A stretch of 33,883 nucleotides of DNA from Clostridiales bacterium (GTDB taxonomy: Bacteria > Bacillota > Clostridia > Oscillospirales > CAG-272), in contig JAEEJH010000126.1 of assembly GCA_016281775.1 (NCBI GenBank), positions 1-33,883 of the forward strand. The letters run 5' to 3'. The translations under genes and the position numbers were made by a program. Below are positions 8,081 through 33,883 of this stretch, piece by piece. Numbering within the stretch: the stretch's first letter is position 1; each line of letters opens with the position of its first letter. The notes beneath the pieces were generated by a model. That model saw only the letters and a list, made by a program, of their open reading frames with translations. It did not search any database and had not been told where the DNA came from.

Positions 8081-8095
8081 GGCTGTATCTCCTTT

Positions 8096-13801: not shown

Positions 13802-13826
13802 CGGTCGGAAGTTCGGTTTCCGACCG
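13802..13826. terminator. Bidirectional terminator between convergent operons
   Basis: CGGTCGGAA-gttcggt-TTCCGACCG, with an A-run upstream (13794-13799) and a T-run downstream (tcttttttg). Confidence 0.8.
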
Positions 13827-13900: not shown

Positions 13901-15397
13901 TTAAAACAGCATCGCTTCGGCGTATTCGGAAACGAACAGAGGGTTCGATGCGAGCTGAACGGTCTTTATTTTCTTAACTGCCGCTTCGCACTCGGAGCGA
14001 AGCGGCAGCGAAAGCAGAAGCAGAGAAGCGCCGGAGAGCGCCGCGTTACCCGTAACGGTGATCCTGTCTTTCAGTTCAGCCGGTATAAGCCCGATCTTCG
14101 CCGCGTTTTCTTTGTCGAGGTAACTTCCGAAGCCGCCGGCGATATAAAGCGTATCAACCTCCTCGATCTTTACGCCCGAGGTCTTTAACAGTGTAACAAT
14201 GCCCGCATGTACCGCGCCTTTTGCAAGCTGTATCGCGCGTATATCCTTCTGCGTCAGCGTGACGTTTTCGTCTAAAGTAATATCTTCTTCAAGGTATCCC
14301 GTTTCGTCAAGATCTTCCGTATCGAGCATACACGCGACCGCGTCGACTATTCCGCTGCCGCAGATACCGGCGGGAGCCTTATCGCCGATCACGCGTACGC
14401 GGTATTTTCCGTCTTTCAGATATACCTTATCGACCGCGCCGTCGCCGCCGCTCATGCCGCACGATATGCCCGCGCCTTCAAAAGCCGGACCCGCGGCTGT
14501 GGAGCAGGCGTAAAACGAGCCTTTGTCGTTCAACACTATCTCGTTGTTGGTGCCTATGTCGGTCAGCATCGTTATCCCGCCCGCTTCATACATCCCGGCG
14601 CTGCATATCGCGGCTGTCGTATCTGCGCCGATAAAAGCAGATATGCACGGCGGAAAATAAATCACGGCGTTTTCGGAGATCGCGTCAAGCCCGATATCCG
14701 AAGCCGGTACATTACAGCCGAAAAGACGCTTCGCCGCAAACGGCGCGTGGGTAAGCGGTTCGACGTCCTCGCCCGTGAGAAGATACAGCATCGCCGTATT
14801 GCCGGCTATCACCGCGCCGTCGATATCGTGCGGGTCGATACCCGCGCCGCGCGCGGCTTTTTTTATCAGTTCGTTCACGCCGTTTCGTATCGACGCGGCT
14901 ATCGCCGCCGCTTCGCCTTTCAGCGCCGCTTCCATACGCGAGATAACGTCAGCGCCGAAAGACCTCTGCGGATTGAGGCAGCTTTGGCCCGATATCAGAT
15001 TCCCCGCGCTGTCGTACAGCCGCAGCGCTATGGTGGTCGTGCCTATATCTATCGCGGCGCCGTATTTTACAAAAGACGGCGAAAGTACGTACTCACGGAG
15101 ATCTCCGTCGGTCCTTATCTGCGAAGCGCCCGCCTCTTCATAACTTATATCGCAGTCGCCTTCGATATACGTCATGCACGCGAGGCGCACGCCGCTTTCT
15201 ATCTCGTCATTCGTCAGCAGATCGCGTTCTTTCTGCGTCAAGGCGGAAAGAGCGCCGCTCGCCTTTACCTTGCATTTGCCGCATTTGCCGTGACCGCCGC
15301 AGGCGCCGCCGAAACCGCGCGGAACAAGAGCGGAGTACAGCGAAACGCCCTCTTCTGTAAACAGTGTATTTTTGTTTACGGTAACTTTACACTTCAT
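13901..15397 (-). CDS. [2Fe-2S] ferredoxin + ASKHA-domain corrinoid protein reductive activase (DUF4445 / RACE-type)
   Basis: N-terminal FGGACGGHGKCGKCKVKASG...RLACM (2Fe-2S cysteines) and an ASKHA phosphate motif AAIDIGTTTIALRLYD; ADTTAAICSAGMYEAGGITMLTDIGTNNEIV; IAGGFGSYLDKENAAKIGLIP. Start placed at 15397 (ATGA overlap 15394-15397); the ORF-track N-terminal extension is spurious. Confidence 0.88.
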   Translation of the reverse strand: MKCKVTVNKNTLFTEEGVSLYSALVPRGFGGACGGHGKCGKCKVKASGALSALTQKERDLLTNDEIESGVRLACMTYIEGDCDISYEEAGASQIRTDGDLREYVLSPSFVKYGAAIDIGTTTIALRLYDSAGNLISGQSCLNPQRSFGADVISRMEAALKGEAAAIAASIRNGVNELIKKAARGAGIDPHDIDGAVIAGNTAMLYLLTGEDVEPLTHAPFAAKRLFGCNVPASDIGLDAISENAVIYFPPCISAFIGADTTAAICSAGMYEAGGITMLTDIGTNNEIVLNDKGSFYACSTAAGPAFEGAGISCGMSGGDGAVDKVYLKDGKYRVRVIGDKAPAGICGSGIVDAVACMLDTEDLDETGYLEEDITLDENVTLTQKDIRAIQLAKGAVHAGIVTLLKTSGVKIEEVDTLYIAGGFGSYLDKENAAKIGLIPAELKDRITVTGNAALSGASLLLLSLPLRSECEAAVKKIKTVQLASNPLFVSEYAEAMLF

Positions 15398-15960
15398 ATC
15401 TGACCGATATCGAACAGCACCGCGCCGAAATAAGTCACGGTGTTCTGTCCGTTGATATATTTCATTCCCGCCGCTTTTGCAAGCGCGGATACGTTCACTC
15501 CGTACGTCTCGAGCGAGGCGACGGCATCGTCCGGATGGCGGCACGGTTCGTTCGTCTTTTTAGCGCAGACTTCGCAGATACTGCATCCGCCCGCGCCGAG
15601 ATTCAGATACCGGGCAAACGGTTCGTCTTTCATTGCCTCGCGTACGTCAGCCATCAGCTTTGCATGCGCCTTCATCGCCTCGACCATGCCTTCGAAATCG
15701 TAACTGTCTTCAAGCGTGCCGACCGACTGATATACGAAGATGAAACCGTAAGAGCGAAGTTCTTTTATAAGCGTTTCTATATCGCCCGCGTCGGGCGGAC
15801 ACATCCAGTTTTTGCCGTAATTGCCGCAGACGTTCTTCTCGCAGAGCGTGCGGAAAGACGGATCGGTCGTTACATCCGAAACCGGTATCACCGCGGCTTT
15901 GTACGCGCCGTACGAGACGGCGAGTTCTGAAAGGTGTATAAACAATTCTTCTTTTTTCAT
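15394..15960 (-). CDS. DUF2284-family cysteine-rich (putative metal-binding) protein
   Basis: CGNYGKNWMCPP and GAGGCSICEVCAKKTNEPCRHPDDAVASLETYGVNV, typical of the DUF2284 family. Confidence 0.82.
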   Translation of the reverse strand: MKKEELFIHLSELAVSYGAYKAAVIPVSDVTTDPSFRTLCEKNVCGNYGKNWMCPPDAGDIETLIKELRSYGFIFVYQSVGTLEDSYDFEGMVEAMKAHAKLMADVREAMKDEPFARYLNLGAGGCSICEVCAKKTNEPCRHPDDAVASLETYGVNVSALAKAAGMKYINGQNTVTYFGAVLFDIGQI

Positions 15961-15961
15961 A

Positions 15962-16600
15962 TCAGTTTGCGGCGCAGAAAGCCGCCGCGGCGTCAGCCGC
16001 GCTTGCGGCGTCTGGCGTGTAGCAGTCGGCGCCTATCTGACGGCAGAACGCTTCGTCTACCGGCGCGCCGCCTATCATGATTTTCACTTTGTCGCGTATG
16101 CCGGCTTCTTCCGCTTTTTTGACCACTTCGCCCATAACTCCCATGGTGGTCGTGAGCAGAGCGGAGCAGCAGATTATCTGACAGTTCTGCTCGATCGCAG
16201 TCTGTATGAACGTTTCCGGCGCGACGTCCGTGCCGAGATCTATGACCTCGAGCCCTTTGCCTTCCATCATCATCTTTACGAGGTTTTTGCCTATATCGTG
16301 CAGATCTCCCTGTACCGTGCCGATGCAGACTCTGCCGACGGCTTTTACGCCCGCCTGTTCGAGATAAGGCTTCAGTACCTGAGACCCGACGTTCATCGCG
16401 CGCGCGGCGACGAGCACTTCGGGAACGTAGACTTCATTCGCCTTGAATTTCTCGCCGATGATATTCATACCGTCGAGAAGACCTTTGCTGAGAATCTCTT
16501 CGGGGGCATAACCCTGTTCTACAGCCTGCATAACGAGCTCTTTTACTATCTTGGCTTTACCTTTTTGCAGATTTTCGGATATTTCGGTAAGAATGCTCAT
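15962..16600 (-). CDS. Corrinoid (B12-binding) methyltransferase protein, MtaC/MtbC/MttC-like
   Basis: Met-synthase cap-like N-terminal helices followed by GTVQGDLHDIGKNLV (DxHxxG lower-ligand motif), CSALLTTTMGVMGEVV and KIMIGGAPVDEAF. Confidence 0.93.
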   Translation of the reverse strand: MSILTEISENLQKGKAKIVKELVMQAVEQGYAPEEILSKGLLDGMNIIGEKFKANEVYVPEVLVAARAMNVGSQVLKPYLEQAGVKAVGRVCIGTVQGDLHDIGKNLVKMMMEGKGLEVIDLGTDVAPETFIQTAIEQNCQIICCSALLTTTMGVMGEVVKKAEEAGIRDKVKIMIGGAPVDEAFCRQIGADCYTPDAASAADAAAAFCAAN

Positions 16601-16614
16601 TTTATTATCCTCCG

Positions 16615-18249
16615 TTATATTATTTTTATGATTTTACCGCGGGTTACGCCGCCCGGATTGTATGCGTCGACCGTGACGTGATATCTCACGCCGCGGATAA
16701 GGCTTCTTATCTCGGCTCCGCATTCGCCGATGATCTGATAATGCGTATGCAGTTCGTTTTCGTTGACGCCGAAACGGACGAAATATCCTTCCGCTCCGGG
16801 CACCGGCTCCCAGCTGACCGTCATGTCGCGTTCGTCTTCGTGCCGCAGTACCGAAAAATCGGGAGCGGAATCCGGCGCTTTTTCGCCGCCTTTTCCGAAG
16901 ATACGCAGACCCGAAACGGCGAATCTGCCGTTTGCCGGGAATCCGCCTCGGTTTGTCAGCTTGATATATCTGAACTTCACGCTGTCGAACTGGAAATACT
17001 CGTGAGACAGATCGTCTTCGTTATCTGTTCTGTCTATCAGCGTTACCCAGTTTTCACCGTCGCATGAGACTTCGACCGTGTATTTATATGAAAATCCGTT
17101 GTCTCTTCCGTGGCATGGCGTAATATCCTGATCGGCGAAATTCACCTGGAGCGAAAACACGTCGCGCATAACACCGAGATCGGCGGCGAGATATTCGCCT
17201 GCGTCGCCTGTCGCCGCGCTCCACCACGTTTTCATATTCTCGTCGAATGCAAGGCAGGGAAGATGATCGCCGTAAACCGACGAGGCGGAAGCTTTCGCGT
17301 TATACGAGAGTAGATGCATGCCCGCGTCCGATCCGGTAAAAGGATCGTCGGTATCGTGCGGGTATATCATCGGATAGTCGCCCCGCAGAGTGTTCGTATA
17401 CAATCTTCCGTCTATGATCTTGGCGGGAAACAAAGCAAGGCGCCGCTCGAACATGTGATTCACGCTGATCGACACCGTGTCGATCTTCCAAAGGCTGCCG
17501 CGCTTGTCCTCGAACAGACAGCCGTGACCCGCGCCGCGCATGAAGCCGGTCGGTTTGAACACGGTCGGGCTGTTATCGCAGTTTTCAAAAGGTCCGAGCG
17601 GATGATCCGATACGGCGACGCCGTCGCAGTAGGTCGAAAACTCCGTTCCGGGCGTGGCGTATGTAAGGTAGTATTTGCCGTTTATCTTGTTTACCCAGCC
17701 GCCCTCGAGGCTCGGCATACGCTCGATCTCGTTATTGTCGCCGCAGCGGTCGTAACCGCGGTTTTTATAATCCGAATAAAATATCGGCACCGGTCCTTCG
17801 ACGACGCGCATATTATCGTTCGGATCGAGCTTCGACGCGTGCAAACACCTGTCGCCGAGCCCTTCGTAAACGTAAACGTAACCGTCGTCGTCGAAAAGGA
17901 ACGCCGGATCGTGCCATTCGTATGGCCGCCCGATATTCACCCACGAATCCGGATCGAACGGATCGTCGGAATACAAGATACTGCCGCCCTGACTGTGCGT
18001 TATATACATCCGCTCGCCTGCGACGCAGACGCCGGGAGCGAAAAGCCCGAATTCCGGCTGTTTTTTCAGATCGACTCGGATAAAGTCCCATTTGACGAGA
18101 TCGTCGGATATCCAGTAACCGGAGCCGTGCGAAGCGAAAAGAAAGTATTTTTCTTTGTAGAGCACGATCGCCGGGTCTGCGGACTCGCGTCCGTTGTAAC
18201 TTAACTGATACTGATAATTGATATTAACGGGGTTACAAAAGGTTTTCAT
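16615..18249 (-). CDS. GH43-family glycosidase with F5/8 type C (discoidin) and fibronectin type III-like domains; no signal peptide
   Basis: Beta-propeller motifs SADPAIVLYKEKYFLFAS, WHDPAFLFDDDGYVYVYEG, EIERMPSLEGGWV. Discoidin-like AFDENMKTWWSAATGDAGEYLAADLG...RYIKLTNRGG; C-terminal FN3-like VSWEPVPGAEGYFVRFG. Confidence 0.85.
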   Translation of the reverse strand: MKTFCNPVNINYQYQLSYNGRESADPAIVLYKEKYFLFASHGSGYWISDDLVKWDFIRVDLKKQPEFGLFAPGVCVAGERMYITHSQGGSILYSDDPFDPDSWVNIGRPYEWHDPAFLFDDDGYVYVYEGLGDRCLHASKLDPNDNMRVVEGPVPIFYSDYKNRGYDRCGDNNEIERMPSLEGGWVNKINGKYYLTYATPGTEFSTYCDGVAVSDHPLGPFENCDNSPTVFKPTGFMRGAGHGCLFEDKRGSLWKIDTVSISVNHMFERRLALFPAKIIDGRLYTNTLRGDYPMIYPHDTDDPFTGSDAGMHLLSYNAKASASSVYGDHLPCLAFDENMKTWWSAATGDAGEYLAADLGVMRDVFSLQVNFADQDITPCHGRDNGFSYKYTVEVSCDGENWVTLIDRTDNEDDLSHEYFQFDSVKFRYIKLTNRGGFPANGRFAVSGLRIFGKGGEKAPDSAPDFSVLRHEDERDMTVSWEPVPGAEGYFVRFGVNENELHTHYQIIGECGAEIRSLIRGVRYHVTVDAYNPGGVTRGKIIKII

Positions 18250-18263
18250 ATACGTATTACCCT

Positions 18264-19364
18264 TTATTTATAATTCAGCGCGCCGGAATGTATGATACCT
18301 GTCATTTTTTTATGCCATCCGATATCGTTCCACAGAGACGGAAACTGAGGTCCGCAGAAATTATTCGTTGTGATTGCAGCCCAGCGACCGGTTTGCGAAG
18401 CTGTTTTTACTCCGATCTCGCATAGCTCTTTTATCCAGCTCCAGTCCGTACCCGGTCTGTCCATACAGTCGATGATGCCCCAGCACTCGGTAGTTACGAG
18501 CGGCAGTCCGGTTTCTTCCGAAAAAGCGGCGAAGTAACGTATCTGTTCCGTTAAAACGTGCTGCCAGTATTTTTTGCTTTTCAGGTAAAGTTCTTTTTGC
18601 TGTTCGATGATCTCGCCGGGCGTTCCGTCGCGTCTTACCTTTGCAAACGCGGCTGTAAATCTTCCGTCGCCGTCGCCGTTCATCCATATATGCGGTTCGT
18701 ACAGTCCGTAGCCTTCGAGATCTTCACGGCCTATCCTGTCAAATTCCGTGGATACCGAAAAGGTCAGCGGTATATCCGGATACGCTTTTTTGTATTCGTT
18801 TATCGTGCCGTGTATCCAGTATTGACAAAGATCTCCGTCGCGGAACGGCACCGAGCCGTCTTCGTTTCTCACGAAATCAGCCCAATGAGCAAATTCGTTG
18901 CAGAAATCAACGTACAGAACGTCGCCGCCGGCGGCAAGGACCGTCTCGGTAGCGCGGATAAACATTTTCGCAAGCGTTTTCGGCGTATCGACGGAGCGGA
19001 CGGCGCTTCTCGTGCCGCTGTCGCGGAACCACGTTGAAAGCCCGAGCTTTATTCCGTTTGCGGAGCAGACTTTTACGAAATCGGTCAGCTTTTTTTCAAC
19101 GTTTTCGATATAAATCGTTTCTCTCGTCCCCCACGACGCATAATCCGGCGGCCAGACGGGATCGAGCCGGAACACGCCGTGAGGATTACGGTATATCATA
19201 TGAGGAAAAACGTCGAGTCTTATCGCGTCGTAACCGCGTTCTTTCAACTCGGTTACGGCTTTTTCCCAGTCTTCGTATCCGCCGCCTTCGAAACGGCGTT
19301 CGAGCCATGAGAAATCCCACATCGTTATGGCGAGCGGATGCTTCAGTGAGTTCAAGGCGTTCAT
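18264..19364 (-). CDS. Cellulase-like (sugar-binding cellulase-like) TIM-barrel glycoside hydrolase family protein, no signal peptide
   Basis: MWDFSWLERRFEGGGYEDWEKAVTELKERGYDAIRLDVFPH; DVLYVDFCNEF; LVTTECWG. Looks like the PF12876-type cellulase-like family, assigned from memory rather than a search. Confidence 0.65.
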   Translation of the reverse strand: MNALNSLKHPLAITMWDFSWLERRFEGGGYEDWEKAVTELKERGYDAIRLDVFPHMIYRNPHGVFRLDPVWPPDYASWGTRETIYIENVEKKLTDFVKVCSANGIKLGLSTWFRDSGTRSAVRSVDTPKTLAKMFIRATETVLAAGGDVLYVDFCNEFAHWADFVRNEDGSVPFRDGDLCQYWIHGTINEYKKAYPDIPLTFSVSTEFDRIGREDLEGYGLYEPHIWMNGDGDGRFTAAFAKVRRDGTPGEIIEQQKELYLKSKKYWQHVLTEQIRYFAAFSEETGLPLVTTECWGIIDCMDRPGTDWSWIKELCEIGVKTASQTGRWAAITTNNFCGPQFPSLWNDIGWHKKMTGIIHSGALNYK

Positions 19365-20479
19365 ATTTTGATCTTCTTTATCTCTTCCGTATAATACTGT
19401 ACGAGTTCGAATTTCGTACCGGGCATCAGTCTGTGGTCCGGGCAGGGGATAAAGCCGCCGAGCGAGGCGAGCCGCTTCATACGTTCGACCTCTTTATCGA
19501 CCGCTGCTTTGTCTATACGCAGAGCGGTCTTGTCCATACCGCCTACGCCGAGAACGTTTTTGCCGAATTTCTTTCTCGCCGGCTCGAACTGATCGCCCCA
19601 TACGCCGACCTCTATCGGGAACATAGTGTTCACGCCGGTTTCGACCCACGTCGGCAGAAGCTTATCCGTCACGCCGTCACAGTCGAGCGATATGATATCT
19701 ATGCCGTATTTATGGCAAAGCTCGTTGCGTTTTTTATAATGCTTCGCGCACAGCCCGTCGAACAGATCGGGTGAGAGAAGAGGCCCGTTTTTGAAGCAGA
19801 TATCCTCCCAGTAGTGCGCGAAATCGAATTTCGCGCCCGTCTGTAAGATCGCCTCGGCGCATTTGTACTGCATTTCGGCGTAGGTGTCGACTATGTCGGC
19901 GAAAAGCTCCTCGTCCTCGTCGTATATGAGATAACTCATACCGATCACGGTCGTTATGTTTCTTATGTTGCCCATGACCGAACCGAGGTGCAGTCCCACG
20001 GGTACGTCGTACGGGCGTATATCGTTGAACTTTTTGTAAAACTCAACGTCTACGCGTTCGGAAAAAAACTGCATTTTCGGTTTGTAGTATTTTTCAAACG
20101 ACTCGCGGTCTTTCAATAGATAATCGTCTTCCGACGGTATCGACGTTACGCCGGGCTTGACGCGCTCGATAACGCCGTCGGCGTTCTGCACGCGGCGCGA
20201 TCCGTCGGGCAGGACCTCGAGCACTTTGGTCTCAAATCCGGGTATGAGATGATTTGCGCTGCCGTAAGTTCTGTAATAGTTGAAATCCCAGCCGAGCAGT
20301 TTATCAAGTTCACGTTCCTTTTCGCTGCCGTCATAGTTGCCGATCGCAAGCTCCGCAGGTATCTTGCCGAGCCTTACCCATTCGTCAAGCAGCTCGGGCC
20401 AGTAGCCGAAATGCACCGCAGGCATTCTGTCGACCGGCTTGAAATGCAGAAGGTTAATGCATCTTTCTCTGTTAGTCAT
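19361..20479 (-). CDS. Uroporphyrinogen decarboxylase (URO-D)-family methyltransferase, Cys-type
   Basis: MTNRERCINLLHFKPVDRMP; HYWEDICFKNGPLLSPDLF; IISLDCDGVTDKLLP; GGFIPCPDHRLMPGT. ATGA overlap with the downstream gene start (19361-19364). Confidence 0.87.
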   Translation of the reverse strand: MTNRERCINLLHFKPVDRMPAVHFGYWPELLDEWVRLGKIPAELAIGNYDGSEKERELDKLLGWDFNYYRTYGSANHLIPGFETKVLEVLPDGSRRVQNADGVIERVKPGVTSIPSEDDYLLKDRESFEKYYKPKMQFFSERVDVEFYKKFNDIRPYDVPVGLHLGSVMGNIRNITTVIGMSYLIYDEDEELFADIVDTYAEMQYKCAEAILQTGAKFDFAHYWEDICFKNGPLLSPDLFDGLCAKHYKKRNELCHKYGIDIISLDCDGVTDKLLPTWVETGVNTMFPIEVGVWGDQFEPARKKFGKNVLGVGGMDKTALRIDKAAVDKEVERMKRLASLGGFIPCPDHRLMPGTKFELVQYYTEEIKKIKI

Positions 20480-20488
20480 TGAATCACC

Positions 20489-21490
20489 CTATTTTACCGC
20501 TTTTTCAGCGTATTCTTTAAGCATATCGATGTATTTGTAGTATCTTTCAAGCGGTACGTCCGGCGGCGTCTGATGGTCGACGCTCGGTATGAAACCGCCC
20601 GTCTTCATCACGGGCAGAAGACGTTCGAATTCGCCGCGCATATCTTCAACGCCGCGGCGCATCGTCATTTTGTCAAACGCTCCGATGAACAGAAAATCGG
20701 GGTGCGCTTCACGCAGAGCCGCGACGTCTACGCCCGCCTGCCGCTCAAGCGGCAGAACGCCTTCGATGCCGGCGTGCTTCAGCCACGGTATCATCTTCGT
20801 TATATCACCGTCGCTGTCGACGATGACTTTCGTGCCGTGTTCTTTTATGTAAGGTATGACCTTTTGATAGTACGGGAGAAGGAACTCGTTGAACGAATCT
20901 TCCGAGATCATGGGACCGTTGTTATAGCTCATATCTTCGCCGAAGGTCATGAAATCAGGTGTGAGGACCGAATATACCTTTTCAAGCGTTCTGAGCTGAA
21001 AATCGGCAAGATCGTCGAGTATCCGGTGATAAAGCTCCGGTTCGTCGTAGAAAGAATACAGATGATTCTCTATGCCGAGCAGAGTGCGGGGAAACCAGAA
21101 GCCGCCGTCTACAGAGAACCAGATCGGAAAATCGCCGCGGTCGTGCGCTTCTTTGAGCGCCTTCATGCCTTCGATCGCCGCGTCGACTTCGTTATCGGGA
21201 TAGAGGTAAGGCAGAAGAGCCTCGTAGCCGTCTTCGTCTTCGCAGATCGGTCCGCCGTTGAATTTCGGCTGAGGACAGTCTGCAGCTCGATGCTGGAACC
21301 AGAACTGTATATGCTGATCGAGGCCGAGATAAGGCGCAAGCTCGCGAAAACCGATGTCGGACGGCAGTCCCTGGCTTTGCCAATTGACGACGGTCTTATC
21401 CCACCACCACGACGCCCATTCGATAGCGGGCAATCTGTCGTCCGGTTTTTCAAAATTCAAAACAGCCTGAAAACGTTCTCTGTTGGTCAT
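20489..21490 (-). CDS. Uroporphyrinogen decarboxylase (URO-D)-family methyltransferase, Ser-type paralog
   Basis: MTNRERFQAVLNFEKPDDRLPAIEW; FGEDMSYNNGPMISEDSF; VIVDSDGDITKMIPWL; GGFIPSVDHQTPPDVP. Confidence 0.86.
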   Translation of the reverse strand: MTNRERFQAVLNFEKPDDRLPAIEWASWWWDKTVVNWQSQGLPSDIGFRELAPYLGLDQHIQFWFQHRAADCPQPKFNGGPICEDEDGYEALLPYLYPDNEVDAAIEGMKALKEAHDRGDFPIWFSVDGGFWFPRTLLGIENHLYSFYDEPELYHRILDDLADFQLRTLEKVYSVLTPDFMTFGEDMSYNNGPMISEDSFNEFLLPYYQKVIPYIKEHGTKVIVDSDGDITKMIPWLKHAGIEGVLPLERQAGVDVAALREAHPDFLFIGAFDKMTMRRGVEDMRGEFERLLPVMKTGGFIPSVDHQTPPDVPLERYYKYIDMLKEYAEKAVK

Positions 21491-21509
21491 TGTATTATCC
21501 TCTCAATCA

Positions 21510-23375
21510 TCAAAATAAACGGATCGAAGCGAAGCCGTAAGGCGGTATATCGGAAAGATATGCTTTATCGCCTTCGAGGCGCCCCGTGCAGTTGAAAAAT
21601 TCCGCGTTATCGTACTTCCGATCGAGTTCGACGATTCCGTCCATTACGGGATCTGCGAAGAAATTCCAGAGCCCGACGACCGTTTCTTTTTCGTTCTTTT
21701 TGCACTGCAGATAAAGCTGAGGGCAGTCGTTTACGTAAGCCGGCAGTTTTCTGCCGAGCCGCGCGGCAAAATCGGCGTACTGTCTGCCGCGCTTTTTATG
21801 CCGCATTACCGCCGGATCGCTTTCGCGCGGGCTGAAATTGAGTATCAGGAATTTCTGCCCGTCGGCGTTTTCATAGTAAAGAGACATCGGCACCGTTTTG
21901 CCGTTGACTTCCGCGTAACTCAAAACCTCAGCGTTATCGCTGAACCGTGCGACGTATATCAAAGCGTTATAGACGCCGGCGTCGTCGCCGTCTTCATAGG
22001 TTTCCGTCGCGGTGTGTTCGATGCCGTCAACGCCTATAAAACCGCAGTCGATGCCGCGTTTCGTAAGTATATCCGCGGCGGCCGTGTCGATTATCAGACC
22101 GTTATCAAGCGCTGACAGCGGCAGATTTCTCGCGTTTTCGTCAAACGCCGCGCCGAAAACGCCCTCTCCCGTATAGACCGTCGGTACGGAGCAGTAGGAA
22201 AGCGACCGCGCCGCCATCGGGAAGAACAGATGCTCGGGATCGTTTAACGTGTTGTATACCGTCGGGTATTGTGCTTCGGCAAATTTCTTCATCGAAGAAT
22301 ATATCCTTACGCCGCAGGACTCTTTATCCGCAAAATGCGCGTTTATCCATTCGTATACCGGTTTATTGCGTTCGTACAGCCGCGCGTAACCTGTCTCGGT
22401 GTCGGGGCGCGATGTGTAGTCTATGCCGTATTTCAGTATGCCGTCGTTGCAGCCGGCCGCGCGCAGCGCCGTATCGAAGCCTTCGAGATATGCGGCGGGG
22501 CACTGTATACGGGGGCGAGGGAAAACGTCGCCTTCGGACATCACCTCTATATCGGGGAATTTCGTCCACGCCGCTTCCATACGTTCGAGCTCGATCGTAT
22601 CCTGTATCATATTGCCCCAGTTCTGCTTCGCCGCCCAGTAAGGCGCGCCGATCAGACGGACGAAAGGTTTGGTCTTATCGCCCGCGAGCAGACGCGCGAT
22701 CTCAGCGGCGTCGACGCCGTCGATATCCCATCCGGTCATACAGGTGCAGAAGCCGACGCGAATGTTTTCATCCACCTCGTCGATCGCTGCTCTTACGCTT
22801 TTCGCAAAGTTTCTGAAGGCGTCGCCGTTAGCCTGTAAATATGCGTCGCGGTAACGGTTTTTGCCGCCGTTTCTTATCAGCGGGTAAAGCTCTTCCGCCG
22901 AATGCTCTTCGCCCGTGATCGCGTTTATCATCCTGACGTGGTTTTTGCATAAGCAGCCGGGCAGCGAGCCGAAAAAGCCGTATCTGAAATCGTCGTCGAA
23001 CATCAGAAGATCCGGTCCGCAGCCCGCAAGCTCTTTCAGAAAATCAAGCGCGAACTGCATAAACCCGGGATCGGTCGGGCAGGCGTAGCGCGTGTATCTG
23101 GCGCCGTCGAGACCGGTCATACATTCAAATTTCGTATCTTCCTTGAACATGAACGTCCAGATCCAGATACCGACCTCGAGGCCGTTTTTCTTGAAATAAG
23201 GGATGAACTCTTTGAGATACTTAATCGCCCGCGCTCTTTCGACGGGATCGGTGATATAATATTCGAGGCTGATGAACACCCTGTCGGCGTCAAAACGCTT
23301 CAGCTGATTCAGCGTTTCTTTCGCGCCATGTCTGATCATGGTATCGTTGCCTACCGGTACGGAAATTCTGTACAT
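21510..23375 (-). CDS. Uncharacterised TIM-barrel, glycoside-hydrolase-like cytoplasmic protein
   Basis: MYRISVPVGNDTMIRHGAKETLNQLKRFDADRVFISLEYY...GLEVGIWIWTFMF...GPDLLMFDDDFRYGF...RVGFCTCMTGWDIDG. Start at 23375 has GGAGG upstream (minus strand: GGAGAAATGGAGGTATTTGAAATG). No signal peptide. Confidence 0.65.
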   Translation of the reverse strand: MYRISVPVGNDTMIRHGAKETLNQLKRFDADRVFISLEYYITDPVERARAIKYLKEFIPYFKKNGLEVGIWIWTFMFKEDTKFECMTGLDGARYTRYACPTDPGFMQFALDFLKELAGCGPDLLMFDDDFRYGFFGSLPGCLCKNHVRMINAITGEEHSAEELYPLIRNGGKNRYRDAYLQANGDAFRNFAKSVRAAIDEVDENIRVGFCTCMTGWDIDGVDAAEIARLLAGDKTKPFVRLIGAPYWAAKQNWGNMIQDTIELERMEAAWTKFPDIEVMSEGDVFPRPRIQCPAAYLEGFDTALRAAGCNDGILKYGIDYTSRPDTETGYARLYERNKPVYEWINAHFADKESCGVRIYSSMKKFAEAQYPTVYNTLNDPEHLFFPMAARSLSYCSVPTVYTGEGVFGAAFDENARNLPLSALDNGLIIDTAAADILTKRGIDCGFIGVDGIEHTATETYEDGDDAGVYNALIYVARFSDNAEVLSYAEVNGKTVPMSLYYENADGQKFLILNFSPRESDPAVMRHKKRGRQYADFAARLGRKLPAYVNDCPQLYLQCKKNEKETVVGLWNFFADPVMDGIVELDRKYDNAEFFNCTGRLEGDKAYLSDIPPYGFASIRLF

Positions 23376-23403
23376 TTCAAATACCTCCATTTCTCCTGAT
23401 ACC

Positions 23404-23431
23404 ATTTTACCATAATTTTTGTAAATTTCAA
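23404..23431 (-). promoter_or_regulatory. Putative promoter of the methyl-transfer/glycosidase operon
   Basis: On the minus strand: TTGAAA-N16-TAAAAT with extended -10 (TGG-TAAAAT), about 30 nt upstream of the 23375 start. Confidence 0.6.
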
Positions 23432-23532: not shown

Positions 23533-24318
23533 ATGAAGAAAAAACTCGTTATAGTTTCGATAGACGGCATGAGACCGGACGGCTTTCTTAAGTGCGGCAG
23601 TCCCTTCGCCGATGAGATCATGAAAAAAGCGACGTATTCGCTGAACGGCAGAACGGTGTTTCCGTCGGTCACGCTGCCGTGCCATATGTCGATATTCCAC
23701 AGCGTACCGCCGGAGCGCCACGGCGTAACGACCAACACGTACACGCCCATGGTCAGACCGGTCAACGGCCTTTTCGAACAGGTCGGATACGCCGGAGGTG
23801 TCAGCGCGATATTCTACGGCTGGGACAATATACGCGACGTCGCAAGACCGGGTTACGTCAAGTACGGCGAATTCATAAACTGCTTTATGAAAGATCATAC
23901 CGACGGGATCCTTACCGACCGCTGTCTTAAAAGAATGAGAGAAGACAGACCTGATCTCGTGTTCCTTTACCTCGTCGAGACCGACGATAAAGGCGGTCAC
24001 GACGTCGGATGGATGAGCGAGACGTATCTCGAGTACGTAAAATACGCGCTCGGATGCGTCGAACGCGTTTACAGAGAATTCGGAGATGAATATTCATTCA
24101 TAATAACCGCCGATCACGGCGGCCACGACAGAGGTCACGGGACCGATATGCCCGAGGATATGACCGTGCCGATATTCTTTATGGGAGAAGATTTTGAAGA
24201 AGGGAAAGAGCTCCCCGAACTTTCCGTACTCGATATCGCTCCCACCGCCGCGGACGTCATGGGCGTGATGAAAGCTCCCGAATGGGAAGGCATAAGCTTA
24301 TTGAGCGAGGTGAGTTGA
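23533..24318 (+). CDS. Alkaline-phosphatase-superfamily type I phosphodiesterase / nucleotide pyrophosphatase-like protein
   Basis: VIVSIDGMRPDGF, NGRTVFPSVTLPCHMSIF (nucleophile region), YLVETDDKGGHDVG, IITADHGGHDRGHG. Confidence 0.87.
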   Translation: MKKKLVIVSIDGMRPDGFLKCGSPFADEIMKKATYSLNGRTVFPSVTLPCHMSIFHSVPPERHGVTTNTYTPMVRPVNGLFEQVGYAGGVSAIFYGWDNIRDVARPGYVKYGEFINCFMKDHTDGILTDRCLKRMREDRPDLVFLYLVETDDKGGHDVGWMSETYLEYVKYALGCVERVYREFGDEYSFIITADHGGHDRGHGTDMPEDMTVPIFFMGEDFEEGKELPELSVLDIAPTAADVMGVMKAPEWEGISLLSEVS

Positions 24319-24320
24319 AA

Positions 24321-25646
24321 ATGAAAAAGATCATAGCAGCCGTATTGGCGTTCATGCTCGCAGCGTCGCTTTCCGCGTGCATGGGGACCGGCGTGATCCC
24401 GGATATAACGGATGATACCGCGGATGATCATACGGTCGAACAGATAAGCGATCCGAAGCCCGTCGCGGCTAAAGGCGTGCAGTTTCTTACGGGCGAAACG
24501 TTCGTTTCTGACAGAACGGCGTCAAAGGTAAGCGAACAGTTCAAAAAGGGCTATGCCGGACTTGCGATCGAGCTTTTGAGACGTTCGGCAAACGGTAAGA
24601 GCGCTCTTATCTCGCCGCTCTCGGTAATGACGGCTTTGCAGATGACGGCGAACGGCGCGAAAGGTCAGACGCTTTCCGAAATGCAGAAAGTGCTCGCGGG
24701 TATGGATACGGAAGAACTCAACAAACAGCTCTTCAACTATTACGCAAAACTCGCGTCGACCGACGGCGCAAGGCTCGAGAGCGCGAACGCGATATGGATC
24801 ACCGACAGCGACGATTTTACCGCGGATAAGGGATTCTTAGACATCATCAACAATACGTTCCGCGCACAGATTGCCACGGCTCCGTTTCCCGACAGATCTA
24901 CCGTCGACGCGATAAACGAGTGGTGCAAGCTCAACACCGATGAAATGATCAAAAAGATACTCGAATACGACGACGTCAGCTCCGATACGGTAATGGTACT
25001 GCTCAACGCCTTGTGCTTCAGCGCGCTGTGGGCGGAACAGTATGAAGAATATCAGTGCAGAGAAGCTGAATTCGAAGGCGAGCACGGCACAAGCAAAGTC
25101 ACGATGATGTATTCGGAAGAAGGCGGATATATAAGCGGAGATAAAGAAAAAGGGTTCGTCAAATATTATAAAGACGGTAACTACGCCTTTGTCGCCCTGC
25201 TGCCGGAAAAAGGCGTCAGAATGAGCGATTACCTATCGTCGCTGACGGGCGAAAAGCTCGTTTCGCTGCTCAATAACCGCGGAGGCGCCGTCAGCGCCGG
25301 TCTGCCCAAGTTCAAATTCGACTGGTCGGCATCGCTCGTTCCGGTACTTTGCGAAATGGGTATGGAGACGGCGTTCACCGAAAGATCGGATCTTTCCGGT
25401 CTCGGCAAAACCAAAAACGGCGAGGCGCTCGCAATAAGCGATGTCATACACAAAACGCATATAGAAGTCGACGAATCCGGCACGAGAGCCGCCGCGGTGA
25501 CCGCGGTCATCGTCAACAAGGTCACGTCCGCAATGCCGACCGAAAGGCACGAGGTCATCCTCGACAGACCTTTCGTATACGCAATAATCGACACGAATAC
25601 GAATCTTCCGGTATTTCTCGGATGTATTACCGATATAAATAAATAA
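24321..25646 (+). CDS. Serpin-family lipoprotein (putative serine/cysteine protease inhibitor)
   Basis: Lipoprotein signal MKKIIAAVLAFMLAASLSAC. Serpin core ISPLSVMTALQMTANGAKGQTLSEMQKVL; hinge VDESGTRAAAVTAV; C-terminal LDRPFVYAIIDTNTNLPVFLGCI. ATG at 24321 with GAGGTGA upstream. Confidence 0.93.
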   Translation: MKKIIAAVLAFMLAASLSACMGTGVIPDITDDTADDHTVEQISDPKPVAAKGVQFLTGETFVSDRTASKVSEQFKKGYAGLAIELLRRSANGKSALISPLSVMTALQMTANGAKGQTLSEMQKVLAGMDTEELNKQLFNYYAKLASTDGARLESANAIWITDSDDFTADKGFLDIINNTFRAQIATAPFPDRSTVDAINEWCKLNTDEMIKKILEYDDVSSDTVMVLLNALCFSALWAEQYEEYQCREAEFEGEHGTSKVTMMYSEEGGYISGDKEKGFVKYYKDGNYAFVALLPEKGVRMSDYLSSLTGEKLVSLLNNRGGAVSAGLPKFKFDWSASLVPVLCEMGMETAFTERSDLSGLGKTKNGEALAISDVIHKTHIEVDESGTRAAAVTAVIVNKVTSAMPTERHEVILDRPFVYAIIDTNTNLPVFLGCITDINK

Positions 25647-25669
25647 CTTCCGAAAAGGAGATAATGATA

Positions 25670-25966
25670 ATGAAGATCGAACAGAACAAAAACGGTAACG
25701 AACTGACGATCGCCCTTCAGGGCAGACTCGACACGGCGACCGCGCCGGAGCTTGAAGAAGTCATAAGATCGTCTCTTGACGGTGTGACGGAACTTGTATT
25801 GGACCTGAAAGAACTCGATTATATCTCGTCCGCAGGTCTGAGAGTGCTTCTTGCCGCTCAGAAGACGATGAACAAGCAGGGCGCGATGAAAGTACAGAAC
25901 GTCAACGAGACCGTAAACGAGATATTCGAAGTGACGGGATTTACGGATATCCTCACGATCATATGA
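25670..25966 (+). CDS. STAS-domain anti-sigma factor antagonist (RsbV/SpoIIAA-like)
   Basis: LTIALQGRLDTATAPELEEVI...LVLDLKELDYISSAGLRVLLAAQKTM...VNEIFEVTGFTDIL. RBS AAGGAG (25655-25660) fits the ATG at 25670 better than the one at 25664. Confidence 0.92.
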   Translation: MKIEQNKNGNELTIALQGRLDTATAPELEEVIRSSLDGVTELVLDLKELDYISSAGLRVLLAAQKTMNKQGAMKVQNVNETVNEIFEVTGFTDILTII

Positions 25967-27762: not shown

Positions 27763-27767
27763 CGTAT

Positions 27768-29357
27768 ATGTCAGAATACAATAATCAACCCATAACGGTC
27801 GTTCTGACCGGGAGAATAGATTCCGGCAACGCCGCCGCTGCGGAAACCGAGATCCTGGCGCAGCTTGCCGGCAAGGGCAGCGTTCCGGTCCGGCTCGACG
27901 CATCCGCGCTCGAATATATATCGAGCGCGGGACTCAGAGTTATACTTCGCTTAAAAAAAGCGTTTCCGGATCTGCGGATAGAAAACGTCAGCCCGGAAGT
28001 GTACGATATACTTGAAATGACCGGCTTTACGGAGATGATGGACGTCGTAAAAGCTTACAGGACCGTTTCGGTCGAAGGCTGCGAGGTAATAGGTGAAGGC
28101 GCAAACGGCAAGGTTTACCGCATCGACGGCGACAACGTCGTAAAGACGTATAAAAACGCCGACGCGCTTGCCGAGATACAGCACGAACGCGAGGTCGCCC
28201 GTCTCGCCCTTATACTCGGCGTGCCTACGGCGATATCGTACGACGTCGTCAGAGTAGGCGACAGCTACGGTTCCGTATTTGAGCTGCTGAACGCCAAGTC
28301 TTTTTCAAAGATACTCGCAAAAGAACCGGACAAGTTCGACTGGTGCGTATCCGAATACGTCGGAATGCTGAAAAAGATCCACGGCATAACCGTACCGGAA
28401 GGCAAACTCCCGTCGATCAGGCAGAAGCGGCTCGGCAGTGTGAAGAATTTGAAAGGCGTATTGCCCGACGCTCTCTTTGAAAAACTGCTCGGGATGACCG
28501 AAGCGATACCGGAAAGCGACCGCATGATCCACGGCGACTATCATACTAAAAATATTGTGCTCGCCGGCGACGAGGTGCTTGTAATAGATATGGATACGCT
28601 GTCCGTTGGTCATCCGATATTCGATTTTGTCAATATGTATAATTCATATATAGGATTTTCGGAGTACGATCACGACGTGGTACTGAAATTCCAGGGTTAC
28701 GATTACGAAACGTCGAAACGCTTCTGGCGCGCATCGCTCGCGGCTTATCTCAATACGAATGATGAAAATTATATAAACGGGGTCGAAGAGAAGATCCGCT
28801 GCCTGTCATACGCGTATCTGATCGAGCGCTCCATACGCCGCGGACTTGACGAAGAAGGCGCGCGTTCGCTGTGGATCGGCAGACTGACCGAAATTCTGCA
28901 GCGTGTCGATTCGCTCTGTTTCGAAGCCGCGCCCGAAGACGGCGGCGCACAGAACGAACTCGTGATCGAAGCGGATACGGCGAACCTCGAAAAAGTCACG
29001 GAATTCGTCGACGCGCGTCTTGAGGCGGCAGGCTGTCCGCTCAAACCGAAAATGCAGATAGACGTCGCGGTCGAAGAGATCTTCGTGAATATCGCGCATT
29101 ACGCCTATACGCCCGGCAAAGGCAACGCGACCGTACGCGTTGAAGTTTCGGACGATCCCGTGACCGTGACGCTCACGTTCATCGACAGAGGCGTACCTTA
29201 CGATCCGCTGAAGAAAGACGATCCGGACGTGACGCTCAGCGCGGAAGAGCGCGGTATCGGCGGGCTCGGTATTTTCATGACGAAGAAAATGATGGACGAC
29301 GTCTCTTACGAATACAAAAACGGTCAGAACATTCTGACGCTGAAAAAAACGATCTGA
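27768..29357 (+). CDS. Three-domain fusion: STAS + aminoglycoside phosphotransferase/choline-kinase-like kinase + RsbW-like HATPase
   Basis: STAS residues about 1-97 (LEYISSAGLRVIL). APH-like kinase about 105-375 (GEGANGKVYRI, K126, HGDYHTKN 255-262, VIDMDT 272-277). HATPase_c about 395-529 (VAVEEIFVNIAHYAY N-box, IDRGVPYDP, GIGGLGIFMTKKMMD). Confidence 0.9.
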   Translation: MSEYNNQPITVVLTGRIDSGNAAAAETEILAQLAGKGSVPVRLDASALEYISSAGLRVILRLKKAFPDLRIENVSPEVYDILEMTGFTEMMDVVKAYRTVSVEGCEVIGEGANGKVYRIDGDNVVKTYKNADALAEIQHEREVARLALILGVPTAISYDVVRVGDSYGSVFELLNAKSFSKILAKEPDKFDWCVSEYVGMLKKIHGITVPEGKLPSIRQKRLGSVKNLKGVLPDALFEKLLGMTEAIPESDRMIHGDYHTKNIVLAGDEVLVIDMDTLSVGHPIFDFVNMYNSYIGFSEYDHDVVLKFQGYDYETSKRFWRASLAAYLNTNDENYINGVEEKIRCLSYAYLIERSIRRGLDEEGARSLWIGRLTEILQRVDSLCFEAAPEDGGAQNELVIEADTANLEKVTEFVDARLEAAGCPLKPKMQIDVAVEEIFVNIAHYAYTPGKGNATVRVEVSDDPVTVTLTFIDRGVPYDPLKKDDPDVTLSAEERGIGGLGIFMTKKMMDDVSYEYKNGQNILTLKKTI

Positions 29358-30236: not shown

Positions 30237-30270
30237 AATAAAAAAATCGGCTTGCGCCGATTTTTTTATT
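30237..30270. terminator. Bidirectional terminator between convergent genes
   Basis: Perfect 15-bp stem AATAAAAAAATCGGC-ttgc-GCCGATTTTTTTATT. The minus-strand gene's stop codon (30266-30268) lies inside it. Confidence 0.9.
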
Positions 30271-31327
30271 CAAAATCTTCGATACGCCACTCGTCGAGCC
30301 ATTCGATATAAGGCTTATCGCCGTCAAAGCGGACCGGCAGCCAGACGTAGTCGGCTTCTTTCGTTCTTTCCCTCGGAAGCGAGCGCATAACGACGGACGC
30401 TTTCGCCTTTTCGTCTTCCGGCGCGAACGGATCGAACAGTATATCGTACGCCTTTTCGTACAGCTCGTACGGCACGTCCATCGCGTTCGGCATCCATCGG
30501 TCGGCGCAGGCTATGTAAAGATCCTTTTTGCACGGGACTTTGAATACGCTAGATATCTGGCTGTGAAACGACGTTCTGCTCGGATCGTTCACGTGCGGAT
30601 CGCCGAGAACGGTGTAAGGCCCGTGCCACGTATCCGCGACCGCCGCTTCGGAAGGGTTCGGCATATAGCCGCTCGTGCCGGAAGTGATCAGATAGTGTTT
30701 GAAATTGCGTACGAAATGCGCCGTCGCCTCACGTACGTACGGCGGGTGACTGTGAGGAAAGTGGGTCGAATAATAACCGGTGACGTTCGTATAATCGTCG
30801 GTAAGATCCGCGCATATCGTCTCCGAATGCACGCGCTCGAAATAGTAATACGCTTTGCCGTCCGGTGCGACCGCAAGATCAAAATCGCCCGCGCTCATAC
30901 CGAGCGGATAAAGCCCTTCACGCACCTTCGTGTAAGGACCGGTCAGTTTATCCGCCGTCATGACCGTCTCGCTCTGCGAGCCGTCTTTCTGCATGATCTT
31001 TAACCAGCAGACGAATTTCTTCATTCTGCCGTTATAGATTATATGCGGTCTGTCCATCATCGAATGCGGATTGACGCTTGAATCCGGGTCGTCGGGTTCC
31101 GGTGGTATGATCAGCCCGAGATCTTCCCAGTTGTAAAGATCGTCCGAGCGGTAACAGCGTACGCCCCAGTGCCAGATACCTTTTTCGGGATCGGTGAATT
31201 CCTTGTTTTCACCGTACCAGTAATACGAGCCGTCAAGATACATAAGAGAACCGCCGTGCGCCTGTATGCGCTCGCCCTTCGTGTCGAGCCAGATCTGCCC
31301 CGGTCTTATGGAATCGTATTTTTTCAT
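30266..31327 (-). CDS. GH43-like five-bladed beta-propeller glycosidase, no signal peptide
   Basis: HGGSLMYLDGSYYWYGENKEF; MMDRPHIIYNGRMKKFVCWLKI; SAGDFDLAVAPDGKAYYYFERVHSE. ATG at 31327 with AAAGGTGA RBS preferred over the GTG at 31336. Confidence 0.75.
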   Translation of the reverse strand: MKKYDSIRPGQIWLDTKGERIQAHGGSLMYLDGSYYWYGENKEFTDPEKGIWHWGVRCYRSDDLYNWEDLGLIIPPEPDDPDSSVNPHSMMDRPHIIYNGRMKKFVCWLKIMQKDGSQSETVMTADKLTGPYTKVREGLYPLGMSAGDFDLAVAPDGKAYYYFERVHSETICADLTDDYTNVTGYYSTHFPHSHPPYVREATAHFVRNFKHYLITSGTSGYMPNPSEAAVADTWHGPYTVLGDPHVNDPSRTSFHSQISSVFKVPCKKDLYIACADRWMPNAMDVPYELYEKAYDILFDPFAPEDEKAKASVVMRSLPRERTKEADYVWLPVRFDGDKPYIEWLDEWRIEDFE

Positions 31328-31332
31328 ATCGG

Positions 31333-33883
31333 TCACCTTTCTATCATTACGAACACGCCTTCGGCGATATCGAGCGTTACGGAATATTCGCCGTTGACTT
31401 TTTCAAGCGTCGTTTTTTCGCCGTTTTTCCATGCCGTGACTTTGTATTCGCCGTCAAGGGTGAAAACGAAATCCGCTTTCGTATCTTTGTTCACGCTGTT
31501 CATGTTGACAGCGGTAAAAGCGAAACCGTCGCCGTTCTTTTCTTCAAAACATCCGAAGAGCAGAGGATCGTCCGATTTTATTTCTTTGATCACGTTGAAA
31601 CCGTCGTACTGATTGTCGAACTGGGCGTACGCGAATTTTAATCCGTCGCAGTTTTTGCAGAACGCGCCGACGTTTTTGAACCTTACGTAATCGTCGGATA
31701 ACGCGAGTATTTCAAAGTCGGCTTTCTTTGCCGCGTCGTACACTTCGGTAGTCTTGCCGTCAACTACAAAAGCGTAATGGTTAGTGTAGCTGTAAAGATA
31801 GTGGAGAAACGTCTTTACGCCGAACGAAAGACCTACGTACATCTGCCATCTTATATCTTTATAATTCGGCGTCCATTTGCCGCCGTCGTAGTCTACCGAT
31901 TGAATGAACAGCCAGAATTCACGGTCGTATCTGCGGCACGCCGAGGCGAACACGTCCATGTTTTTCAGATATTCACCATATATTTTTTTCGTCCTTCCGC
32001 TCGACCGGTAAGGGTAGATATCGACGCACATATAACTGCCGGGTACGCTTTCGGCGTATTCGGAGACGTACTTTTCATATAGATCCGGATCCGAATCATA
32101 GTAATCGATCTTCGCCGCGCCGGCGCCGTATTTGAGCTGGGCGGCGTTTGCATACATCGGGAGCAGATTGTAGTAGCAGAGCTTGCCCGGAAGAGTGCCG
32201 TTATAATATTCGGTAAGCGCCGACATTCTGCCGAATTCGTCGGTGCCGGGCTCGTCGTATATAATATTGCCGAAATAAGAATCGTAATCGTAATATTCGT
32301 AACAGGACGCCGGGACCGGATCGGGTTTCGACGCGTTGAATTTCGAGGGCGAATAAATATAGCGAAGCACTTTGACGCCGTATTTTCTTGCGTCGTTCAT
32401 TACCGTCCTGAGCGTGGCGCCCTCTTCGATGTCGCCGAGGTTGATGAGCAGCGAAAGCCCGGCTTCCGAAAACGTTTTTATCGTATTGCCGTCAACGCCG
32501 TAAGGGAACTGCGACCACGCGCCGATTGTTATGCCGTCTTTATTTGAAACGTTCGACTCGAGAACGGGCTGACCGAGCACGGCTTTTATAAGCCTTGTCA
32601 CTATCGAAGCGAATTCTGCGCCCGACAGAGTTTTTGCGTTGATATCGGTTATCACACCGCTGCATACCGCGAGATTTTCCGCGTCTGAGAGTCCTTTTAC
32701 CGAAAGCGACTTATCTGTATAAACCGACAGATCGAATCTTTTTAAGAGAGAACCGACGAGCTGCGCGGTGAACTTAGCGTCGGCCGGATCTTTAAGATCA
32801 TCGGTATTCGCCGGCGGCAGTATTTCTTCGAAAACGCCGAACAGTATCGCCGTCGCTCTGTCTTTTGTTATTTTTTCAGCTTTGAGTTCGGCTTCGGTCA
32901 TTACTCCGCGTATGGTGACGAAATCGGCGTCCGTTTCAACTTTTTTATCGGGGTAAGACAGAGAATACTCGCCCGCCTTCGAGGCAAGATACGAGACGAA
33001 TCCGATGGAATTGACGTAACTGACTGCAACGACGGTTTCTTTGCCGTCGGCGCTGCATACAACGATCGGAGAAACGCCGTTTTTGATCTCAGCCGCCGCG
33101 CTTTGAATCATCAGATAATCCGCCGAATTGTAACCGTCAGACAGAGTATTGCCCGGCACAACGGCTTTTGCAAAGTCTTTTGAAAACGTAACGGATTCGG
33201 AATAATCAGGTCCTTTCGCGTCGTCGAGGAACACCTGCGCGTCCTCTTCCGTCTTGAAAAATCCGACGCGGTCAAGATATATTACGGCCTTTTTGTCAAG
33301 AGAACCGCCGTTTATCGGGTCTATCCTGAACGCCGTGATAACGCCTTCCCAGAACGCGTTTTTACGCATATCGGTTATCACGTTCGTCCACGCGCCGCGG
33401 TTGCTGACGTTGATCCAGGTAAGTCCGTCGTCGCTGAAAGAAGGATGGTTTTCCGAGGTGACGAAAAACACGCCCTGGTTATAAGTCGATTTTACGCTGT
33501 ATCTGTACGCGACGAACGGATACTCCTGCGAATCGAACTGCTCGTCTTCGGTAAACGTGCAGAAGATCATCGGATCGTGATTCGTCGGAACGAGTTTAAG
33601 CACGTTGAACTCGCGCGAGACTTCAACGCCCTGCGTGGTCCATTTCGTCTGTTTTTTATTGTCCGCAAACAGGTAGGCGTGCGTATCGTCGTAAGGCGGT
33701 ACGTACGGTTCTTCAGTCGCCGCCTCCGTTTCGGTTTCGTCCGTTACCGTGTTTTCGGTATCGGACGCTTTTTCCGTCAGGCGTTCAGCCGTTTCCGTAT
33801 CCGCGGCGGTCGTCGCGGCGGGCGCGTTCTGACCGCACGAAGGCAGAACGAGCATGAACAGCGCAAGCGCGAGCGTGGCGAGC
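31333..33883 (-). CDS. Large secreted lipoprotein (N-terminus cut by window edge) with possible degenerate S-layer-homology-like region and a C-terminal glycosidase-like domain
   Basis: The frame stays open to the window edge: LATLALALFMLVLPSC (lipobox), then an acidic Thr/Glu-rich linker (NAPAATTAADTETAERLTEKASDTENTVTDETETEAATEEP). The C-terminal half contains ITIGAWSQFP...YDEPGTDEFGRMS. Confidence 0.65.
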   Translation of the reverse strand, partial: LATLALALFMLVLPSCGQNAPAATTAADTETAERLTEKASDTENTVTDETETEAATEEPYVPPYDDTHAYLFADNKKQTKWTTQGVEVSREFNVLKLVPTNHDPMIFCTFTEDEQFDSQEYPFVAYRYSVKSTYNQGVFFVTSENHPSFSDDGLTWINVSNRGAWTNVITDMRKNAFWEGVITAFRIDPINGGSLDKKAVIYLDRVGFFKTEEDAQVFLDDAKGPDYSESVTFSKDFAKAVVPGNTLSDGYNSADYLMIQSAAAEIKNGVSPIVVCSADGKETVVAVSYVNSIGFVSYLASKAGEYSLSYPDKKVETDADFVTIRGVMTEAELKAEKITKDRATAILFGVFEEILPPANTDDLKDPADAKFTAQLVGSLLKRFDLSVYTDKSLSVKGLSDAENLAVCSGVITDINAKTLSGAEFASIVTRLIKAVLGQPVLESNVSNKDGITIGAWSQFPYGVDGNTIKTFSEAGLSLLINLGDIEEGATLRTVMNDARKYGVKVLRYIYSPSKFNASKPDPVPASCYEYYDYDSYFGNIIYDEPGTDEFGRMSALTEYYNGTLPGKLCYYNLLPMYANAAQLKYGAGAAKIDYYDSDPDLYEKYVSEYAESVPGSYMCVDIYPYRSSGRTKKIYGEYLKNMDVFASACRRYDREFWLFIQSVDYDGGKWTPNYKDIRWQMYVGLSFGVKTFLHYLYSYTNHYAFVVDGKTTEVYDAAKKADFEILALSDDYVRFKNVGAFCKNCDGLKFAYAQFDNQYDGFNVIKEIKSDDPLLFGCFEEKNGDGFAFTAVNMNSVNKDTKADFVFTLDGEYKVTAWKNGEKTTLEKVNGEYSVTLDIAEGVFVMIER

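Follow-up and report, generated by a model that had tools for sequence, protein, structure and literature searches.

What methyl donor is served by an operon that joins corrinoid-dependent methyl transfer to glycosidases is the question raised by contig JAEEJH010000126.1 of a Clostridiales bacterium (assembly GCA_016281775.1). The whole contig, 33,883 bases long, was analysed and is referred to as the window; the draft genome comprises 2.58 Mb and is 90.7 percent complete, and its named relatives are mainly metagenome-assembled genomes of Clostridia/Oscillospiraceae from rumen and hindgut. The reading that we prefer, tentatively and at somewhat less than even odds, is that of an operon for corrinoid-dependent O-demethylation in a herbivore-gut Clostridium that is not an acetogen; its donor would likeliest be an O-methylated sugar of plant glycans and whose methyl groups may pass to homocysteine/tetrahydrofolate (THF).

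The operon consists of eight co-directional minus-strand genes running from 23375 to 13901 (Table 1), with starts corrected from homologues and ribosome-binding sites and with intergenic gaps, in gene order, of 19, 9, -4, 14, 14, 1, and -4 bp. It encodes the glycosidase-like proteins GHw, CelL, and GH43, two URO-D superfamily methyltransferases (MT-A and MT-B; the two Pfam matches are 1.8e-16 and 1.7e-9), a corrinoid protein (CP), a DUF2284 protein, and an activase (ACT). The eight packed genes described in the earlier note are all confirmed in the same order by Pfam and open reading frame evidence, and the cytosolic glycosidases that it placed in one unit with the methyl-transfer core are indeed present in the operon. 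GHw more likely starts at 23375 than at 23405, since homologues begin MYKISVP and GGAGG lies upstream, and the activase start at 15397 gives a 4-nt overlap with the DUF2284 gene. Among PDB sequences, CP is closest to the cobalamin-binding protein 1y80, presumably from Moorella, and also matched chain 4jgi, which we take to come from a Desulfitobacterium O-demethylase; no informative relative was found there for MT-A, MT-B, GHw, GH43, or the lipoprotein of Table 1. Neither GHw nor the GH43 protein shows a signal peptide, and the fn3 match of the latter is weak (0.0003, under the Pfam cut-off). The operon core is beyond chance, as the same core occurs in dozens of genomes. Promoter-like matches, on the other hand, were no more frequent in the window than in shuffles, so that position is the sole argument for the promoter-like and terminator-like sites that flank the unit. 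Control by a cobalamin or S-adenosylmethionine riboswitch was rejected, as an Rfam search of the window and seven relatives matched neither.

Table 1. Features of the operon and associated genes in the window
Feature	Position	Strand	Basis or remark
Promoter-like site, TTGAAA-N16-TAAAAT, TG ahead of second hexamer	23404..23431	-	Consensus match, position only
GHw, glycosidase-like TIM-barrel protein of unnamed family	21510..23375	-	Homologue family
MT-B, URO-D superfamily methyltransferase, D-S-D-G (D225, D227) and H306	20489..21490	-	Pfam, alignment
MT-A, URO-D superfamily methyltransferase, D-C-D-G (D266, D268) and H349; family marker	19361..20479	-	Pfam, alignment
CelL, PF12876 cellulase-like glycosidase, relative 3gyc; NEF and TECWG Glu motifs visible	18264..19364	-	Pfam 8.9e-88
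GH43, with F5/8 type C and FN3-like domains	16615..18249	-	Pfam GH43 4.8e-21, F5/8 type C 2.3e-14
CP, monomeric corrinoid protein, DLHDIG motif	15962..16600	-	Pfam B12-binding 7.5e-26, B12-binding_2
DUF2284 protein, seven Cys	15394..15960	-	Pfam 3.5e-47
ACT, RACo-type reductive activase (2Fe-2S and ASKHA)	13901..15397	-	RACo C-terminal 1.7e-66, RACo middle, 2Fe-2S
Terminator-like 9-bp stem-loop and T-run	13802..13826	-	Position only
Secreted lipoprotein	31333..33855	-	No Pfam match; 62 percent identical to 847-aa lipoprotein inside L074/L035 methyltransferase operons
Second GH43, overlapping lipoprotein gene	30266..31336	-	Putative association with the operon

How general this arrangement is was addressed by a survey of 121 neighbourhoods, 104 after dereplication, nearly all from herbivore-gut Clostridia; gene calling used codon scoring, contig ends truncate many loci, and some consist of MT-A alone. 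MT-A orthologues (at least 64 percent identity) occur in 43 of the 196 genomes of the family. One carrier that is in culture is Eisenbergiella porci (L101), with an MT-A of 78 percent identity. The same gene run as MT-A holds CP in 65 of the 104 loci, DUF2284 and the activase in 51 each, a second (acceptor) methyltransferase of the URO-D type (MT-II) in 46, and MT-B or an MT-B-like protein in 42. This methyltransferase module is thus the conserved unit; it also occurs without glycosidases, which are not a general part of it. A universal glycosidase association was rejected, the 72 genes adjoining the module having no dominant Pfam family, and because most of the 104 loci lack glycosidases, these cannot define a universal substrate. 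The earlier note had called for such a survey and had taken the glycosidases to indicate a sugar or glycoside donor; the association recurs in the genus-level clade of the window, and it is there, not across the module as a whole, that the claim finds support.

The chemistry of the two methyltransferases can be approached through their metal sites. The model of MT-A is a URO-D/MtaA barrel (pLDDT 84) with MtaA (4ay7) as the nearest solved fold, and that of MT-B is of the same barrel type (pLDDT 92), nearest to UroD and 4ay7. MT-II of the relatives aligns with 4ay7 across an HxC motif and a second Cys, the zinc ligands of MtaA. In profile alignments, D225, D227, and H306 of MT-B fall on these positions of MT-II/MtaA, and D266, D268, and H349 of MT-A fall on those of MT-B; when MT-A is aligned directly with MT-II, and also when all are aligned jointly, the first pair is shifted by one residue. 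The motif of MT-II is HNCG in 43 of 45 proteins, with His-Cys-Cys in the aligned columns. MT-A has DCDG in 104 of 106 proteins and the His in all 106; the motifs of MT-B are DSDG (22), HSCG (13), HSDG (9), and a few others, again with the His. The genome yielded no URO-D protein besides MT-A and MT-B, which both have Asp-Asp-His, and these two score far below the MtaA/CmuA model or give no match to it. According to Kountz and Balskus (PMC10418091), His-Cys-Cys goes with sulfur or selenium substrates and the change from Cys to a carboxylate with oxygen substrates. By this rule, the Asp-Asp-His sites predict an oxygen-bound methyl donor for MT-A and MT-B, and His-Cys-Cys predicts a thiol acceptor for MT-II. 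Judged by these residues, MT-A and MT-B most likely take the methyl group from oxygen, and the metal-site change fits the O-demethylation proposed in the earlier note.

The same residues bear on a further explanation, a type 1 mlp cluster that has diverged and serves to salvage methyl-sulfur or methyl-selenium, which we regard as very improbable. The type 1 clusters, likewise from anaerobic Firmicutes, share the architecture of several URO-D proteins, a CP, and an activase of the Ram/RACE or RACo type and also include no THF methyltransferase (PMC10418091), but the Mlps are His-Cys-Cys sulfur/selenium enzymes, and the type 1 clusters need Mlp2 and Mlp3 with this motif, which is present in the MT-II of the relatives and in neither URO-D protein of the window. 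The position of these proteins far below or off the MtaA/CmuA model also speaks against it, and no sulfur or selenium gene was seen among the window genes (the genome was not searched for SelABD).

As to the donor, glycosidases are found inside the methyltransferase operons of close relatives: GH43 in the window, L033, L078, and L079 (copies 76-84 percent identical to that of the window), PF12876 in the window, L074, L035, and L075 (81-82 percent), and GH95 in L074, L035, and L079, with the 847-aa lipoprotein in L074 and L035. All operons whose MT-A is at least 82 percent identical and that are complete enough to judge hold at least one glycosidase, except L076 and L077; beyond that clade glycosidases turn up only here and there (a GH106-like gene in five loci, and single cases of GH78, GH29, and GH3). 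Directly upstream of MT-B, L093 carries genes for KDPG aldolase/KDG kinase, a heparinase-type lyase, and SDR, FAD, and OYE-type proteins, and a PfkB kinase gene lies upstream of MT-B in L076. These neighbours and the interior glycosidases support a sugar donor in the clade of the window, and a methylated plant sugar appears the likeliest donor in this genus. The example given in the earlier note, 4-O-methylglucuronoxylan, is disfavoured, because none of the five genomes of the genus has GH67 or GH115, and neither is associated with MT-A in the 196 family genomes (GH115, 2 of 43 versus 6 of 153, p=1.0; GH67, 2 of 43 versus 2 of 153, p=0.21). A separate observation is the recurrence of OYE-type, SDR, and FAD-binding genes near MT-A homologues of only 46-79 percent identity (L093:1322-8834, L067, and L069); in L093 they accompany the heparinase-type lyase and the KDPG aldolase/KDG kinase, the latter a fusion.

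Two other kinds of donor have to be weighed at this point. The glycosidases might remove the sugar from a plant glycoside (flavonoid, lignan, or monolignol) whose methoxylated aromatic aglycone is then demethylated by MT-A and MT-B. This appears unlikely, if a serious contender: characterised O-demethylases of the URO-D family act on aryl methyl ethers (PMC13222342), CP resembles 1y80 and 4jgi, and a few loci have GH106-like or GH78 rhamnosidase-like genes nearby, but the window showed no gene of aromatic catabolism, sugars are suggested by the uronate genes of L093/L076 and by the GH95 of the genus, and the hosts lack the Wood-Ljungdahl pathway that makes aryl demethylation pay in acetogens. 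Less credible still is a simple donor, such as methanol from pectin, chloromethane, or another small one-carbon compound, with glycosidases that are merely co-expressed on plant cell-wall feed. The occurrence of the core module without glycosidases in most genomes would agree with this, as would chloromethane being the substrate of a URO-D substrate methyltransferase (MT-I) (PMC13222342); against it stand the lack of a Pfam match to the MtaB-type methanol methyltransferase family in the operon and the presence of several distinct MT-I paralogues in a single operon (e.g., five URO-D-like proteins besides MT-II in L152), which suggests several larger donors.

The fate of the methyl group in O-demethylation leads to the one-carbon metabolism of the host. 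MT-II is absent from the operons of the window's clade, and in L033, L074, L035, L078, L075, and L093 a homocysteine S-methyltransferase (HcyMT) lies between MT-A and CP; these proteins are 81-88 percent identical to that of L033, and the zinc motifs are retained. MT-II and HcyMT were never seen together (45 loci have MT-II alone, 4 have HcyMT alone, and 11 lack both), the HcyMT loci being closely related and not independent. The window genome has a single PF02574 protein, on contig C127, that is 31 percent identical to the operon HcyMT; the sole PF00809 protein detected, a pterin methyltransferase, shares an operon on contig C65 with MTHFR and two ETF subunits. With the operon CP as the single PF02310 protein found, separate HcyMT, pterin methyltransferase, and corrinoid protein are present once each on three contigs of this 90.7 percent complete genome, in which neither a MetE-type (PF01717) protein nor MetH was found. 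Because of the C127 protein and the C65 operon, homocysteine and THF are both possible methyl sinks. The MTHFR-ETF-ETF-pterin methyltransferase operon was seen at L158:2729-6239 (C65 of the same genome) and in L213, and a C65-type pterin methyltransferase of 79 percent identity occurs in another family member that has MT-A. Acetogenesis was rejected as a sink: the Wood-Ljungdahl corrinoid protein (CFeSP, PF03599) has no match in the genus, and matches in the family are weak and nearly all in MetH-length frames, so that the hosts are not acetogens.

This inventory also allows for CP being mainly the B12 subunit of a split MetH, formed with the C127 HcyMT and the C65 pterin methyltransferase and fed secondarily by MT-A and MT-B. 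The single copies of CP, HcyMT, and pterin methyltransferase and the missing MetH and MetE would suit such a role, but the genome is incomplete, three genomes of the same genus have the operon plus long MetH-type pterin-domain frames, and genomes that have MetH keep the operon core as well; we therefore rate it as improbable.

Several points weigh against sugar O-demethylation as set out here. In line with the earlier note, the window operon has a complete methyl-transfer core of substrate methyltransferases, corrinoid protein, and activase, but it has no acceptor methyltransferase, be it MT-II or HcyMT. In about one-third of the MT-A loci the gene run lacks a corrinoid protein, partly through contig ends; most loci that share the MT-A/MT-B core are without glycosidases, whose conservation in the genus may partly reflect recent common ancestry. 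The metal-site argument is indirect, zinc-free O-demethylases having been published, among them one from Moorella, and zinc being likewise missing from CdmB (PMC13222342), and the alignments behind it contain no OdmB, VdmB, or MtvB sequences.

In the mechanism that we envisage, the RACo-type activase would reduce the corrinoid protein to Co(I), with DUF2284 perhaps delivering electrons to the activase, and MT-A and MT-B would move the methyl group from the oxygen of the donor to Co(I). The cytosolic GH43, PF12876, and GHw proteins, together with the lipoprotein and the second GH43, whose genes lie 7-10 kb upstream, may release or trim the donor, likeliest an O-methylated plant-glycan sugar or oligosaccharide in this genus; the lipoprotein is a probable extracellular partner. 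Methyl-Co(III) would be used by the His-Cys-Cys URO-D protein MT-II in most relatives, by HcyMT in the sister species, and by the stand-alone HcyMT (C127) and/or the stand-alone pterin methyltransferase (C65) in the window genome, and the products would be a demethylated sugar for catabolism and methionine or methyl-THF.

Parts of this scheme are known from other systems. Acetogen aryl O-demethylases (OdmABCD, VdmABCD, and MtvABC) and archaeal Mto likewise cluster a URO-D MT-I, a monomeric corrinoid protein, and a RACo-type activating enzyme, and the MT-I proteins of the window share with Odm/Vdm/Mtv a site other than His-Cys-Cys. In contrast to these, the window operon has no pterin-type MT-II in the cluster and no Wood-Ljungdahl acetogen as host, the family lacking the corrinoid protein of that pathway, whereas it does have two MT-I types with Asp-Asp-His, DUF2284, and glycosidases. 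The MtaABC/MtbA system of methanogens shares the fold of MT-A, the MtaA zinc motif in the MT-II of relatives, and the two-step logic, but by Pfam the operon has no MtaB (the genome was not searched), and the acceptor is, as far as known, not coenzyme M. The chloromethane system CdmBCA shares a URO-D MT-I, a CP, and an activating enzyme, but it is zinc free and uses a pterin MT-II (PMC13222342). Split MetH and core methionine synthases (PMC7857596) also pass methyl-corrinoid groups to homocysteine via a separate protein, which in the latter is the MetE-type Mes protein and in the sister species a PF02574 protein.

A literature search found nothing that joins URO-D or corrinoid methyl transfer with glycoside hydrolases or O-methylated donors. 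O-Methyl sugars are part of plant walls and glycans, e.g., 2-O-methyl-xylose and 2-O-methyl-fucose of rhamnogalacturonan II and 4-O-methyl-glucuronate, and the sugar demethylation known to us is aerobic (P450). Corrinoid-dependent O-demethylation of sugars without oxygen would be an undescribed reaction within the searchable literature. It is conceivable but doubtful that non-acetogenic gut Clostridia have a dedicated pathway of this type, in which one corrinoid protein serves several donor-specific methyltransferases and the methyl group goes to homocysteine. If true, a B12-dependent route would account for the handling of O-methyl sugars by anaerobes of rumen and gut, methionine would be made without methyl-folate, gut one-carbon metabolism would receive methyl input outside acetogens, and a testable set of new URO-D methyltransferases would be at hand. 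In any case, the survey sets the methyl-transfer module, which is widespread and unnamed, apart from a sugar context that is specific to the genus.

Some minor observations concern the surveyed operons and the rest of the window. The family of GHw is real (34 of 394 genomes of the order) and without a Pfam or NCBIfam match; a homologue of 80 percent identity adjoins MT-B/MT-A in L073, but GHw was rejected as a marker of the methyltransferase system, as the homologues are mostly located elsewhere in other genomes. Fusions of the corrinoid protein with an AraC-type regulator are encoded by 26 operon genes; these proteins (L038:10578-12143 and about 25 other operons) have about 512-542 aa with a full corrinoid-binding domain, stand beside methyltransferases, and could sense the methylation or redox state of the corrinoid. 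UD7, a Pfam-less URO-D-like protein of roughly 405-430 aa (L050:9369-10610 and 12 other operons), is conserved in these operons and is probably another substrate methyltransferase. Elsewhere in the window, positions 54-9997 hold an ordinary glycogen gene cluster (amylase, phosphorylase, glycogen synthase, GlgC/GlgD-like proteins, and branching enzyme), positions 24282-25646 a secreted serpin of a gut Clostridium adjoining a phosphodiesterase/sulfatase-like gene, and positions 25664-29357 a partner-switching regulatory cassette composed of STAS, a SpoIIE phosphatase, and a STAS-kinase-HATPase fusion.

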